Origin: Streptomyces sp. HPF1205
GTDB taxonomy: Bacteria > Actinomycetota > Actinomycetes > Streptomycetales > Streptomycetaceae
Length of the DNA stretch: 64,000 nucleotides
Direction: 5' to 3'
Assembly: GCF_020400825.1 (NCBI RefSeq)
Contig: NZ_JAINVH010000032.1
Span: 1-64,000 of the forward strand
Position 1 is the stretch's first letter; every line of letters starts with the position of its first letter. The notes under the pieces were generated by a model. The model saw only the letters and a program-made list of their open reading frames with translations. It searched no databases and had not been told where the DNA came from. A program made the translations under genes and the position numbers. Shown here piece after piece: positions 23,808 through 29,812 of the stretch.

Positions 23808-26366
23808 GTGCCGCACCCCTCCGAGGACACACCCACCCCCGCAAGACCCGGACCGGCAACCCCGGCGGCCCAGGCCGCCCCGGTGACCCCGGCCGCCCGC
23901 CGAAACGGCAGCCCCGCCCTCAAGAAGCGGCTGCTGCCCGTCGGCATAGCCGGCTCCCTCGTCCTGGCCGCGCTCGGCGTGCACGCCGCCGTCGCCACGC
24001 CCTCCGCGGACGCCGTGATCAGCGAGGTGTACGGCGGCGGCGGCAACTCGGGCGCCACGTACACCAACGACTTCGTGGAACTTGCCAACGCCGGTGCCGC
24101 GCCCCTGGACCTGAGCGGCTACAGCGTGCAGTACCTGCCGGGCAGCCCCACCGCGAGCTCGAAGTGGCAGGCCACCGCGCTGAGCGGGACGCTGGCCGGC
24201 GGCGGGCGGTACCTGGTGCAGGAGGCGGCCGGGACCGGCGGCACCACCGCGCTGCCCACACCGGACGCGACGGGCACCGTCAACATGTCGGGGACGACCG
24301 GCACGGTCGCGCTGGTGTCCGGCGCCGACCCGCTGACCTGCCTGACCGCCGCGGACTGCGCGGCCGACTCGCGGGTGAAGGACCTGGTCGGCTTCGGTAC
24401 GGCGGTCGTCCACGAGGGCGGCGGCCCGGCGGCCGGCGCGAGCAACACCGCGTCGGTCGCCCGCAGTGCCGCCCTGACCGACACCGACGACAACGCGGCG
24501 GACTTCACCGCGGGCGCACCGACCCCGCAGAACTCGGCCGGGGGCGGCACGCCGACGACACCTCCCACGACGCCGCCGAGCACGCCCCCCACCACCCCGC
24601 CGACCACGCCGCCGAGCACCACTCCCCCGGTCGCCGCCAGGATTCACGACATCCAGGGCCCCACCCGCCTGTCGCCGCTCGCGGGCAAGGCCGTCACCGG
24701 CGTGACCGGCGTCGTCACGGGCGTACGCGGCTACGGCTCGTCGCGCGGCTACTGGGTGCAGGACCCGCGGCCGGACGACGACCCCCGTACCAGCGAGGGC
24801 ATCTTCGTCTACACCGGCTCGGTGAGCCCGGCCGTGGCGGTCGGCGACAGTGTGAGCCTGGACGGCACGGTCTCGCAGTTCTACCCGGGCGGCACGGGCA
24901 TCGGCGGGCAGTCCGTCACCGAGCTGACCAAGGCGAAGGCGACCGTGGTCTCCAGCGGCAACCCGCTGCCGGCGCCCGTGGTCCTGGACGCGGCCGACGT
25001 GCCCGACGCCTTCGCGCCGAGCGCGGGCGGCGGCAGCATCGAGTCGCTGCCGCTGCGGCCCGCGGACTTCGCGCTGGACCTGTACGCGTCGCTTGAGGGC
25101 ATGAACGTGGCGTTCTCCGACGCGCGCGTCGTGGGCGCCACCGACCCCTACTCCGAGTTGTGGGTCACGGTGAAGCCGCGGCAGAACCCGACCAGGCGCG
25201 GCGGCACCGTGTACACCGGGTACGACCAGCCGAACTCCGGCCGCTTGATGGTGCAGTCGCTGATCCCCCTGGCCACCCAGGCGTTCCCCACGGCCGACGT
25301 GGGCGACACGCTGGCCGGGCGGACCGAGGGGCCGCTGGACTGGAGCCAGTACGCCGGCACGTACGCCGTTCAGGCGCGCGCGATCGGCACCGTCGAGGAT
25401 GGCGGCATCGCCCCCGAGGTGACCGCGAAGGCGCGGCCGGACCAGGTGACGGTGGCCACGTACAACGTGGAGAACCTGGCGCCCTCCAACGATCGGGCGA
25501 AGTTCGACCGGCTGGCCAAGGGTCTGGTCACCAACCTGCGCTCGCCCGACATCGTGGCGCTGGAGGAGATCCAGGACAACGACGGCGCCACCGACGACGG
25601 TGTGGTGGCCGCCGACAGGACGCTCACCGAGCTGACCGGCGCGATCGCGGCCGCGGGCGGCCCGCACTACCAGTGGCGGGAGATCGACCCGGTCGACGAC
25701 AAGGACGGCGGGCAGCCCGGCGGCAACATCCGCCAGGCGTTCCTGTTCAACCCCGACCGGGTGTCCTTCACCGACCGCCCGGGGGGCGACGCGACGACCG
25801 CGGTGGGCATCACCGGCACCGGCAGGAACACCGCCCTGACCGCCTCCCCCGGCCGGATCGCGCCGGACGACCCGGCCTGGACCGACAGCCGCAAGCCGCT
25901 GGCGGGCGAGTTCACCTTCCGCGGCCGCACGCTGTTCGTGATCGCGAACCACTTCGTCAGCAAGGGCGGCGACCAGGGCGTCGACAGCCGCTTCCAGCCG
26001 CCGGTGCGCGGCTCGGAGGTCCAGCGCATCCAGCAGGCGATCGTGGAGCACGACTTCGTGCGGCGGCTGGAGCAGGCGGACCCGCGCGCGGACGTCGTCG
26101 TCCTGGGCGACCTGAACGACTACCAGTTCTCGCCCGCGGTCCTCGGCCTCACCGGCGACGGCGAGGTCCTCACCGACCTGGTCGACACGCTGCCGCCGCG
26201 CGAGCGCTACTCGTACGTGTACGAGGGCAACTCCCAGGTGCTGGACCACATCCTGGTCAGCCCCAACCTGCGCCACGACGTGGACTACGACGTGGTCCAC
26301 ATCAACTCCGAGTTCGCCGACCAGACCAGCGACCACGACCCGCAGGTGATCCGCCTGGAGCCGTAG
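23808..26366 (+). CDS. Secreted ExeM/NucH-type extracellular nuclease with lamin-tail domain
   Basis: Predicted 852 residues. The first 65 are a long signal (KKRLLPVGIAGSLVLAALGV after a Pro/Ala-rich start). Residues about 68-195 form a lamin-tail-like domain (VISEVYGGGGNSGATYTNDF, DFVELANAGAAPLDLSGYSV). A Pro/Thr linker follows near 240-280, then an OB-like region, then the endonuclease/exonuclease/phosphatase domain from about 545: VATYNVENLAPSN, IVALEEIQDNDG (metal Glu), FVIANHFVSKGGDQG, VVVLGDLNDYQF and SDHDPQ (catalytic His). Relatives degrade extracellular DNA. GTG 23808 has AAGGAG nine bases upstream. A possible PhoP half-box upstream would suit a phosphate-scavenging role, but this is weak. 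Confidence 0.9.
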   Translation: MPHPSEDTPTPARPGPATPAAQAAPVTPAARRNGSPALKKRLLPVGIAGSLVLAALGVHAAVATPSADAVISEVYGGGGNSGATYTNDFVELANAGAAPLDLSGYSVQYLPGSPTASSKWQATALSGTLAGGGRYLVQEAAGTGGTTALPTPDATGTVNMSGTTGTVALVSGADPLTCLTAADCAADSRVKDLVGFGTAVVHEGGGPAAGASNTASVARSAALTDTDDNAADFTAGAPTPQNSAGGGTPTTPPTTPPSTPPTTPPTTPPSTTPPVAARIHDIQGPTRLSPLAGKAVTGVTGVVTGVRGYGSSRGYWVQDPRPDDDPRTSEGIFVYTGSVSPAVAVGDSVSLDGTVSQFYPGGTGIGGQSVTELTKAKATVVSSGNPLPAPVVLDAADVPDAFAPSAGGGSIESLPLRPADFALDLYASLEGMNVAFSDARVVGATDPYSELWVTVKPRQNPTRRGGTVYTGYDQPNSGRLMVQSLIPLATQAFPTADVGDTLAGRTEGPLDWSQYAGTYAVQARAIGTVEDGGIAPEVTAKARPDQVTVATYNVENLAPSNDRAKFDRLAKGLVTNLRSPDIVALEEIQDNDGATDDGVVAADRTLTELTGAIAAAGGPHYQWREIDPVDDKDGGQPGGNIRQAFLFNPDRVSFTDRPGGDATTAVGITGTGRNTALTASPGRIAPDDPAWTDSRKPLAGEFTFRGRTLFVIANHFVSKGGDQGVDSRFQPPVRGSEVQRIQQAIVEHDFVRRLEQADPRADVVVLGDLNDYQFSPAVLGLTGDGEVLTDLVDTLPPRERYSYVYEGNSQVLDHILVSPNLRHDVDYDVVHINSEFADQTSDHDPQVIRLEP

Positions 26367-26553: not shown

Positions 26554-27441
26554 TCAGTACTCCTCCACGCCCGGGCCTTCCTCGACCTCGCCCATCCTGG
26601 CCTTGATCACCGGGGCGATCAGCAGGTCGTAGACACCGACTCCGATGACCGCACCGGCCAGCGGGCCGACGATGGGAATCCAGAAATAATGATGGAACCA
26701 TTGGAATGTTCCCGGTAGGGCGATCGCGTCCCAGCCCTCGGCCCAGGTGAACAACCGGGGGCCGAAGTCACGGGCCGGGTTGATGGCGTATCCGGAGTTG
26801 GTGCCGAAGGTCAGACCGATCGCCACGACCACCAGGCCGATGAGGAACGGGTGGAGATTCGACATCGGGGCCGTGTTGCGCGTGTCGATGAGCGCGCAGA
26901 TCAGCATGAGCAGCAGCCCGGTGCCGATCATTTCGTCGAGGAACGGACCCCACCAGGAATTCCCGAAGTACTGGGCCGGGAATGTGGCGAAGATGGAGTA
27001 CGTCGGCAGCGACTTGTTCCGTGGGATGCCCGCCTTGGACTCGGCCGAGTCGATCGCCCAGTGGTAGGAGGCGTAGACGAGGGCGGCGGCGACGAAGGCG
27101 CCCGCGAGCTGCGCGAACCAGTAGGGGATGATCTTCTTCCAGGGGAAGTCCCGGCGGACGGCGAAGCCCAGGGTCACCGCGGGATTGAGGTGGGCGCCGC
27201 TGATGCCGCCGGCGACGTACACGCCGAACACGACGGCCAGGCCCCATCCCCAGGAAATGATGAGCCAGTTGGGGGCACCGAACGGAACGCTCTGCCGCCC
27301 CGAACCGGGGAGGCCGACGACGGCGACGGCGACCGATCCGACGCCGATCAGAATCAGAACAAAGGTTCCCAGGAATTCGGCGAGCATCTCACCGCCGATT
27401 CCTTCTCGATAACCGCGTCGACGCGCGATGTGCTCAGCCAT
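26554..27441 (-). CDS. Aquaglyceroporin, glycerol facilitator (MIP family)
   Basis: Predicted 295 residues with six membrane segments and both half-helix signatures: GAHLNPAVTLG and AINPARDFGPR. The Asp after the second NPAR is the usual mark of glycerol-conducting GlpF-type channels rather than water-only aquaporins. Facilitated uptake of glycerol or small neutral solutes is therefore likely. ATG 27441 has AAGGAGAG eight bases upstream, so the longer open frame is not the gene. No glycerol kinase or glpD is adjacent, which is unusual for glpF. The C-terminus ends in an acidic tail (GEVEEGPGVEEY). Confidence 0.88.
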   Translation of the reverse strand: MAEHIARRRGYREGIGGEMLAEFLGTFVLILIGVGSVAVAVVGLPGSGRQSVPFGAPNWLIISWGWGLAVVFGVYVAGGISGAHLNPAVTLGFAVRRDFPWKKIIPYWFAQLAGAFVAAALVYASYHWAIDSAESKAGIPRNKSLPTYSIFATFPAQYFGNSWWGPFLDEMIGTGLLLMLICALIDTRNTAPMSNLHPFLIGLVVVAIGLTFGTNSGYAINPARDFGPRLFTWAEGWDAIALPGTFQWFHHYFWIPIVGPLAGAVIGVGVYDLLIAPVIKARMGEVEEGPGVEEY

Positions 27442-27613
27442 CGGCTCTCTCCTTGGTCGGCATGGAAACAGACCTACCGCTTTCCGGCGGTCCGCGCATG
27501 CACGAGGGACGCCATCGGAGTGAACCGTTCGGCGAGTCGCCGTCACATTCCCCCGGGCGGCCGGAACCGGGTTTCCGCCACGGCCGGTTCCGGCCGCCGG
27601 GGGGGCGCGGGTG

Positions 27614-28585: not shown

Positions 28586-28914
28586 GTGGCTCACGTTTCC
28601 TCGGAAGTCGGGGGCGATGAGATGACCGGTTCCAGCATGGACGGGTGGGCGGGCCGGTGGGCCGCTTCCCGGCGCGCACGGCGTTTCCGACGCGCCGACG
28701 GCGGCGAAGCGGACCGAAAAGGCCGACACGCCCGGGACGGACACATGAAAAGGAAATGCGCACACTTAGCCACTGTTTACAAGGCAGGTGGCGCATATCA
28801 CCCGCGATTCACCAAGCTCGTGGCCCATTATGTCTGGAATGCGGCAGACGCGCGTTTGCCTCTACCCCCTCCGACGTGTCACAGTCGATGTCAACGGCGG
28901 CCGATCGACCCGGG
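28586..28914. other. Intergenic region between quinone oxidoreductase and 6C RNA
   Basis: About 330 bases with no supported gene. The part near 28740-28850 is AT-richer than its surroundings and probably holds the promoters of the oxidoreductase (minus) and of the 6C RNA (plus). Apart from the GCCAC/GTGGC dyad I see no clear operator. Confidence 0.45.
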
Positions 28915-29017
28915 CTCCGCCGTTCCACAGGCGCCGCGGACACACCCCCCCTGTCGCGCGGCGGTTCCGAAGAGGCCCTCCCGCGTCATCCCCCCCCGAT
29001 GCGGAGGGCCTCTTCTT
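28915..29017 (+). ncRNA. 6C RNA (actinobacterial small RNA with two C-rich loops)
   Basis: Two consecutive stem-loops each expose a run of at least six cytosines, the defining feature of the 6C RNA family. Stem 1 is GCCGCG plus GACA (28933-28942) pairing with TGTC and CGCGGC (28952-28962, one bulged G) around a loop with seven Cs (28945-28951). Stem 2 is GAAGAGGCCCTCC (28969-28981) pairing exactly with 29003-29015; a CATC/GATG inner stem carries the second C-run (28991-28997). Stem 2 followed by TTG also fits a terminator, so the 3' end is near 29017. The 5' end is my estimate. No open frame fits. In other actinomycetes 6C is a trans-acting, growth- and development-linked sRNA. Confidence 0.82.
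28969..29015 (+). terminator. Second 6C stem acting as terminator
   Basis: A perfect 13-bp outer stem followed by a short T-containing tail. It closes the 6C RNA transcript before the convergent ATPase gene. Confidence 0.7.
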
Positions 29018-29067
29018 GTGCCCGCGCTTCCCTCACCCGCCCCCGCGTACCGCGCCGGGCGGCGCAC

Positions 29068-29571
29068 TCAGCGGTCGGCGGAGACCCGCAGCTCGAACCA
29101 GGTGGTCTTGCCGCGCGGCTGGAGGTCGACCCCCCAGCGGTCGGAGAGCGTGTCGACCAGGAACAGCCCGCGCCCGCTGATGTCGAGCGGCCGGACCGGC
29201 AGCAGGCACGGCAGCGCCCGCGAGGGGTCGCGCACCTCGACCCTGATCCAGCCGCGCCGCCGCGGCATCCGCAGCCCGAAGGTGCGCGCGCCGGTGTGGC
29301 GTACGGCGTTGCCGACGAGTTCGGAGACCAGCAACTCGACGGTGTCGCCGAACTGGGGCAGGCCCCACATCCTGAGCACGGAGAGCGACAGCCGGCGGGC
29401 GGTGGCGGCCGACTCCGGGCGGGAGGTGAGGTGGACCTCGCGGGCCGACGGATCGCCGAGCAGGTCGAGCGCGGTGACCGCGGCGTCGTCGGCCGGGATC
29501 GGCGTCACCCGCGCGACGCTCTCCGCCCGCTGCGACTGCTCAGATCCTCCCCGGCCCGCCATGTCCTTCAT
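29068..29571 (-). CDS. ATP-binding protein, RsbW/SpoIIAB-like (HATPase)
   Basis: Predicted 167 residues from ATG 29571; another in-frame ATG three codons on (29562) and a longer open frame make the start uncertain. The N box is ELLVSELVGNAVRHTG, the G1 box is degenerate (VEVRDPSRALP, lacking the usual D-x-G-x-G) and G2 is SGRGLFLVDTLSDRWGVDL. KTTWFELRV ends the fold. Proteins of this type bind ATP and may regulate sigma factors, but no partner gene is adjacent. It converges on the 6C RNA. The weakened G1 box may mean weak ATP hydrolysis. Confidence 0.8.
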   Translation of the reverse strand: MKDMAGRGGSEQSQRAESVARVTPIPADDAAVTALDLLGDPSAREVHLTSRPESAATARRLSLSVLRMWGLPQFGDTVELLVSELVGNAVRHTGARTFGLRMPRRRGWIRVEVRDPSRALPCLLPVRPLDISGRGLFLVDTLSDRWGVDLQPRGKTTWFELRVSADR

Positions 29572-29812
29572 GATGGCCGTAACGGCGGTGCCGCGCGGGG
29601 TAACCACCGGAATTGATGACACCGGATCAGGCCATGTACCGGCCGCCTGTCGCATATGCCGGCAGCACCTGCGGGCGTCGGCGACCCCGCCCGCCCGGGG
29701 AGTCGCGCAGGCCGTCGCGGACACGGAGAGTCGCCGAGTCGTGACACCGGGGAGTCGCGCGGGGTTCCCCGAAAGTGCCGCCACGACCCCATCGCTACTC
29801 TCCGTCATGCCC

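Follow-up and report, generated by a model that had tools for sequence, protein, structure and literature searches.

The window, a 64,000-nt stretch of DNA that was analysed as a whole, contains between two protein-coding genes a short segment with two cytosine-rich hairpin loops, for which an earlier note had proposed membership in the 6C RNA family. The questions raised by this locus are whether the segment is an RNA gene and, if so, whether it belongs to 6C or to a family of its own. Judged from sequence comparison, a small-RNA gene with a cytosine-rich loop is very probably present here, and the RNA looks like a representative of a small-RNA family of Streptomycetaceae that is similar to 6C but distinct from it.

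Structure and extent of the RNA unit

Both of the adjacent C-loop hairpins that had been claimed are present and can be read directly from the plus strand: a run of seven C at 28945-28951 and a run of eight C at 28990-28997. The interval 28915-29017 given in the earlier note contains both hairpins but falls short of the full unit, which extends from about 28788 to 29021, because that note had missed a 5' hairpin (28893-28924), the promoter-like hexamers, and an upstream box.

As modelled, the small RNA is about 125-130 nt long (28892-29021, plus strand), as suggested by its score of 108.5 bits with model R1 (the 22 sequences used to build R1 include the window's own), its orthologues, and covariation. 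It comprises three hairpins, all on the plus strand: (i) P1 (28893-28924; AACGGCGG / CCGCCGTT, with GACCCGGGC in the loop), (ii) P2 (28932-28963), whose loop ACACCCCCCC includes the C7 run and is the presumed pairing loop, and (iii) the terminator-like P3 (28969-29015), which carries the C8 loop. P1 and P2 are marked by loop conservation and covariation, and P3 by its stability and a covarying stem.

The folding energy of a 111-nt stretch is -58.7 kcal/mol, compared with -39.2 +/- 3.1 kcal/mol for dinucleotide shuffles (z -6.2). When folded alone, P3 reaches -34.6 kcal/mol (z -7.5), and the first C hairpin, P2, is ordinary for its composition (z -1.0). The second C hairpin is terminator-like, as the earlier note had claimed, and would presumably act in termination; a point against this is that its tail, with a T fraction of 0.24 over 10 nt, does not form a strong U tract. 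A conserved RNA structure, a promoter-like region of its own, and a terminator-like hairpin, the features of a gene for a trans-acting bacterial small RNA, are found together at this locus.

Conservation and covariation of the RNA

In alignment A3, which consists of 52 orthologues fitted to the model (locus L233 was left out as it has no P1), 96.8% of 1693 cells are paired and 25 of the 33 pairs show changes on both sides, counts that lean towards the structure, as the alignment is model-fitted and the sequences are related and not independent. None of 500 shuffles reached the observed pairing values, and slid structures were only 33-50% paired. Changes on both sides were observed in five of the six modelled pairs of P1 and in seven of the eleven pairs of P2, and the P3 stem covaries as well. 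An independent MAFFT alignment of 22 closer sequences gives both-side changes for 4 of the 33 pairs and a covariation term of only -0.39, which is low because the sequence itself is so conserved. Among the 52 orthologues, G-U cells (58) outnumber A-C cells (16), and the plus strand is therefore favoured.

The three loops are conserved to different degrees. The P1 loop contains GACCCGNGC in 49 of the 52 orthologues, and the P2 loop has a run of at least four C in all 52 and ACACCCC in 50, whereas a run of at least five C in the P3 loop was found in 15. Loops with at least six C in both P2 and P3 are present in 12 of the 52, the window included, and are missing from the other 40. Across the aligned sequences, then, P2 is the only hairpin of this RNA in which a C loop is general. 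Self-pairing through the P1 loop, which offers a CCCGGG palindrome, was considered as well; GACCCGGGC itself occurs in 33 of the 52 orthologues, with CCCGAG, for example, among the others, so that this property is not general. Two loci from the window's genus, L233 (4084-4214) and L301 (1501-1623), have no P1 and keep the box, the -10-like hexamer, P2, and P3.

In the set of 89 orthologues, a closed open reading frame of at least five codons is absent from 67 transcripts (frames running past the stretch were not counted), which argues against a small-protein gene, though 18 of the 89 contain a closed frame of at least 20 codons.

Promoter-like region and operator-like box

The hairpins are directly preceded by a promoter-like region (28856-28885). 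It consists of a predicted -35-like hexamer, TTGCCT (28856-28861, plus strand), located 18 nt before a predicted -10-like hexamer, CACAGT (28880-28885, plus strand), the latter being CATAGT in many Streptomyces. A NANAGT hexamer at the start of the RNA was identified in 86 of the 89 orthologues, and in 81 of these 86 TTG is found at a spacing of 17 or 18, compared with 4.3% in shuffles. Many Streptomyces come close to the pattern TTTTGGC-N17/18-TGCCATAGT. For known sRNA genes, control by HrdB has been reported in 75 of 105 cases (PMC6344877).

Farther upstream, the operator-like box GTGGCGCATATCAC (GTG-N8-CAC; 28788-28801, plus strand) has its centre about 97.5 nt upstream of the predicted start of transcription and forms the core of a wider conserved block, TTTACAAGGC-n-A-GTGGC-n-CA-nn-TCACC (28745-28810 in the window). 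Among the 86 orthologues with a recognised -10, such a box is present upstream in 79 (compared with 9% of shuffled sequences), and its centre lies 96-100 nt before the predicted start in 67 (0.17% in shuffles); of the other boxes, five are at 53-55 nt, four at about 65 nt, and three elsewhere, and seven of the 86 have none. The distances cluster near -98, -65, and -54 (about 33 and 44 nt apart), and a single box is located at -108.5, 10 nt farther out. Such spacing near whole DNA turns would be the pattern left by a regulator that faces RNA polymerase from one side, a reading that depends on related sequences and a predicted start site.

The GTG-N8-CAC site at this conserved upstream place fits the form GTG(N)8CAC of C. 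glutamicum GlxR, and the window's box does not match the stricter form GTG(N)6GNCAC of S. coelicolor Crp (both forms from PMC10033298), the additional G being present in 15 of 79 boxes. BldD was rejected as the upstream regulator, as its box TNAC(N)5GTNA (PMC4151990) differs from the conserved one. The far -98 position of the box could also serve something else. At the level of sequence, these comparisons establish a set of three hairpins, in which compensatory changes occur, together with a promoter-like region and an upstream box that stays with the RNA.

Neighbouring genes

The flanking genes agree with those named in the earlier note: one encodes a zinc-type alcohol dehydrogenase/quinone oxidoreductase, the other a HATPase_c_2 protein. 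The latter gene (anti-sigma-like; Pfam PF13581) occupies 29068-29808 on the minus strand and is a convergent neighbour outside the RNA unit. Beyond the flanking genes are an enoyl-CoA hydratase and an L,D-transpeptidase gene. Just past the quinone oxidoreductase gene, 23808-26363 and 26557-27546 encode a lamin-tail/endonuclease-phosphatase protein and an aquaporin-family major intrinsic protein.

The HATPase gene is convergent with the RNA in 85 of the 89 orthologues (separated by 2-207 nt in 84 of these) and has the same direction in two; 37 of the 89 were found with the HATPase gene as bait, so that adjacency in these is by design. In the remaining two loci, L028 and L171, no HATPase gene was found in the retrieved stretch. 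At L214 (4064-4186) and L216 (3976-4098), the two same-direction loci, the cassette of box, promoter, and RNA has flipped as a whole next to the HATPase gene, probably through one event. On the other side, a quinone oxidoreductase match was observed upstream in 12 of the 89 retrieved loci, many of which are short on that side, and the upstream genes of the Streptomyces locus L215, as read from translations, encode an amidase-like and a calcium-binding-type protein. The upstream neighbour of the RNA thus seems to change between loci and the cassette inverts as one; therefore, the box most likely belongs to the RNA.

Distribution of the RNA

With a 151-base query, blastn detected the RNA in the window's genome and in 21 of the 24 relatives from the same genus; 16 genomes from other genera gave no match. 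The three relatives that blastn had missed (G001, G013, and G010) all have model matches. A pattern scan of named genomes yielded at least 13 orthologues among the 120 stretches listed, all labelled Actinacidiphila or Streptomyces, the other listed matches being mostly due to chance. In the family-wide search, R1 was applied with strict filters and matched 53 of 249 Streptomycetaceae genomes, belonging to 4 of 17 genera. Loci were newly retrieved for 23 R1 matches, and all 23 stretches contain the HATPase gene.

With the HATPase protein as bait, its gene was found in all 61 sampled Streptomyces genomes (genus inferred). At E <= 0.01, R2, the model of the window's RNA family, matched 18 of 30 and 19 of 30, in total 37 of 60, of these Streptomyces HATPase loci; the 61st genome, G257, in which the RNA had already been found (locus L215), is outside the 60. 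The other 23 loci have neither an R2 match at E <= 0.01 nor a promoter motif within 900 nt, and the RNA is therefore dispensable; three of the 23 (L275, L294, and L295) have short flanks, and none of them is among the 89 orthologues. The genus of these genomes is deduced from S. buecherae, in whose genome the RNA directly adjoins the coordinates that the HATPase gene has in G548, one of the sampled genomes.

A set of 28 further genomes, 15 of them Streptomycetaceae and 13 from outside this family, was searched with R2 under laxer filters (E <= 0.1). Four of the Streptomycetaceae were matched, each time beside the HATPase gene, and none of the 13 others. Loci L300-L303 come from a later search and are outside the 89-orthologue set. 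Seventeen genomes were reached through their loci. Among the 10 labelled Streptomyces, three were matched, two of these three being already known (hence 1 of 8 new), and the 7 from other families gave no match. A phylum-wide sample, in which few candidates were scored per genome, gave 2 matches in 246 genomes, the own genome and one Streptomyces.

Opposite-strand R2 matches at E <= 0.01 were observed in L250, L281, and L282, no doubt because P3 is palindromic, and no -10 was recognised in L290, L218, and L246; the weakest orthologue rows are therefore uncertain. Among such rows, L290 scores 33 bits and L274 lies 1369 nt from the HATPase gene. As far as sampled, the matches are confined to Streptomycetaceae, where they are the rule in the window's genus and occur patchily in Streptomyces.

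Comparison with 6C and Scr3202

In an Rfam search at the families' own thresholds, nothing in the window exceeded any gathering score, and no entry for the window's RNA family was found in Rfam 15. At lax thresholds, the families that matched this locus best were Scr3202, which reached 37.4 bits where 52 are required, and 6C, which reached 34.3 bits where 47 are required. The earlier assignment to 6C is thus lost on the score threshold that the earlier note itself had named as decisive. In the same genome, the only 6C match over the cut-off is a canonical 6C on another contig (G000:C131:37242-37318, locus L001; 51.5 bits). A second and weaker 6C match of this genome is at G000:C56:106019-106081 (L002; 35.1 bits). 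Over the cut-off, 6C was found in 37 of 41 genomes, comprising the own genome and relatives, and some of these also carry the window-type RNA. No R2 match at E <= 0.01 was obtained on 24 loci retrieved by the 6C model; the highest-scoring hit, with 22 bits and E 0.085, was at a 6C gene. Likewise, an Rfam search of 11 orthologue loci returned nothing at E <= 0.5, a weak test given that, with a search this large, a 6C score at the window's level would miss this limit too.

The RNA resembles 6C (RF01066; B11) as a stand-alone RNA with adjacent C-loop hairpins, the second of which is terminator-like. It differs from 6C by an extra 5' hairpin with the GACCCGGGC loop and by having only one general C loop. 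The 6C identity was rejected because the score is below the cut-off, a true 6C is located elsewhere in the same genome, two C loops are retained in few orthologues, and R2 has no match at E <= 0.01 in the 24 loci retrieved by the 6C model. C-loop architecture by itself, then, does not identify 6C. The Streptomyces family Scr3202 (RF02833) is similar in its two C-loop hairpins and has the best Rfam score here; it was rejected as well, this score being below the gathering score, Scr3202 being unlisted in the 11 orthologue loci at E <= 0.5, and the genome search showing none over the cut-off in the own genome. The Scr3202 gene is located beside hrdD.

Related small RNAs

The published small RNAs of actinobacteria offer several further points of comparison. 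According to PMC4046766, 6C has been reported to belong to the GlxR network of C. glutamicum, which may parallel the GlxR-type box of the window's RNA. Within Streptomyces, 6C has been reported in S. lividans, S. ambofaciens, and S. clavuligerus (PMC8079986, PMC8388888, PMC11678152), and a predicted Scr3202 in the studies on the first two species (PMC8079986, PMC8388888); functionally characterised Streptomyces small RNAs are few (PMC8388888). The small RNA scr4677 of S. coelicolor likewise lies beside an anti-sigma-type gene, 14 nt upstream of SCO4676 and antisense to its 5' region (PMC3896431), whereas the window's RNA converges on the HATPase gene with the enoyl-CoA hydratase gene beyond, a comparison by layout alone. 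Two conserved small RNAs whose terminal loop is C-rich, scr5583 and scr1434, are described in a three-species survey (PMC3765725). By name these two belong to other loci, and it is the locus name alone that sets them apart from the window's RNA.

An S. coelicolor orthologue, should one exist, may lie in the SCO5459-SCO5461 region, as guessed from the gene order at L215 and the annotation of SCO5460. SCO5460 has been listed as an orphan histidine kinase (PMC9739842). The names scr5459, scr5460, scr5461, and scr5462 were not found in the literature, supplementary tables aside, nor was a description of the window's RNA in the passages on Streptomyces small RNAs that were covered; an earlier record of the transcript under another name is possible.

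Proposed function and alternative explanations

On balance, we consider it probable that the locus encodes a stand-alone, non-coding, trans-acting RNA of about 125-130 nt, which is probably controlled by Crp and pairs through its P2 loop. In the proposed pathway, (i) a Crp/GlxR-type, cAMP-dependent regulator would bind the box and set transcription, (ii) the RNA would be transcribed and terminated at P3, (iii) the P2 loop (ACACCCC...) would pair with G-rich mRNA stretches, most simply near ribosome binding sites, and (iv) this pairing would lower translation of the targets, by analogy with 6C/B11 in mycobacteria. In the mycobacterial system, each of the two C loops of B11 is able to repress a leader containing six G, and repression is regained with paired mutations (PMC10470900). 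P1, with its GACCCGGGC loop, probably makes a second contact or protects the 5' end.

The earlier note had suggested that G-rich ribosome binding regions within the window could be targets, which gained no support from a count of loop complements. The sequence GGGGGGTG, the complement of part of the P2 loop, is rarer than expected across positions 1-64000, with 2 occurrences compared with 9.98 +/- 3.09 in shuffles (a rough test), and one of the two sites is the complement of the RNA gene itself; no target of the P2 loop was found among the GGGGGGTG occurrences within the window.

Three other explanations were weighed against this proposal. That the RNA is a genuine but divergent member of 6C is, in our estimate, the least probable of them. 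In its favour are two neighbouring hairpins with loops of seven and eight C, the terminator-like character of the second, the end-to-end alignment of the 6C model, and the weak R2 match to one 6C gene; these points are opposed by a score under the gathering threshold and below that of Scr3202, by the presence of a canonical 6C elsewhere in this genome and in most relatives, by the 40 of 52 orthologues without two loops of at least six C, and by the lack of R2 matches at E <= 0.01 in the 24 loci retrieved by the 6C model, together with the weaker, score-limited null result of the Rfam search in the 11 orthologue loci. It is likewise very improbable that the unit is merely a shared bidirectional terminator or 3' region of the HATPase gene that is incidentally transcribed. 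P3 is indeed a long palindrome, and the HATPase gene is convergent at a short distance in nearly all loci, some of them by bait. Against a mere terminator stand the conserved and covarying P1 and P2, the promoter-like elements and box conserved on the RNA strand, and a cassette that is kept both when inverted (L214 and L216) and where no HATPase gene was found (L028 and L171).

A real small RNA that acts via a protein, for example with an RNA-binding regulator held at the GACCCGGGC or ACACCCC loops, or one whose own regulator is not Crp, is an unlikely alternative, though less so than the other two. In its favour, the loop conservation exceeds the need of simple C runs, no targets were found, and the box is an imperfect match to the Crp site. 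On the other hand, the hairpins do not repeat one motif, P1 is missing from L233 and L301 while P2 and P3 stay, and the closest studied C-loop RNA acts by pairing. The preferred reading is the pairing RNA under probable Crp control. A more specific version of it, in which a C-loop RNA restricted to Streptomycetaceae is under direct Crp/cAMP control and shares the design of 6C, having descended separately and acting beside 6C in one cell, is put forward tentatively, as somewhat less than probable.

If the more specific version is true, two C-loop RNAs with similar loops, 6C and the window's RNA, exist side by side in one cell. Deletion of Crp has been reported to speed growth and sporulation, and its overexpression raised antibiotic yield (PMC12093943). 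The combination of a conserved RNA, a promoter-like region, a fixed box, and a short pairing loop offers a testable route from Crp to mRNA translation. With the RNA present at 37 of the 60 Streptomyces HATPase loci and no match at the other 23, its gain, its loss, and changes in its loops can be compared with candidate targets.
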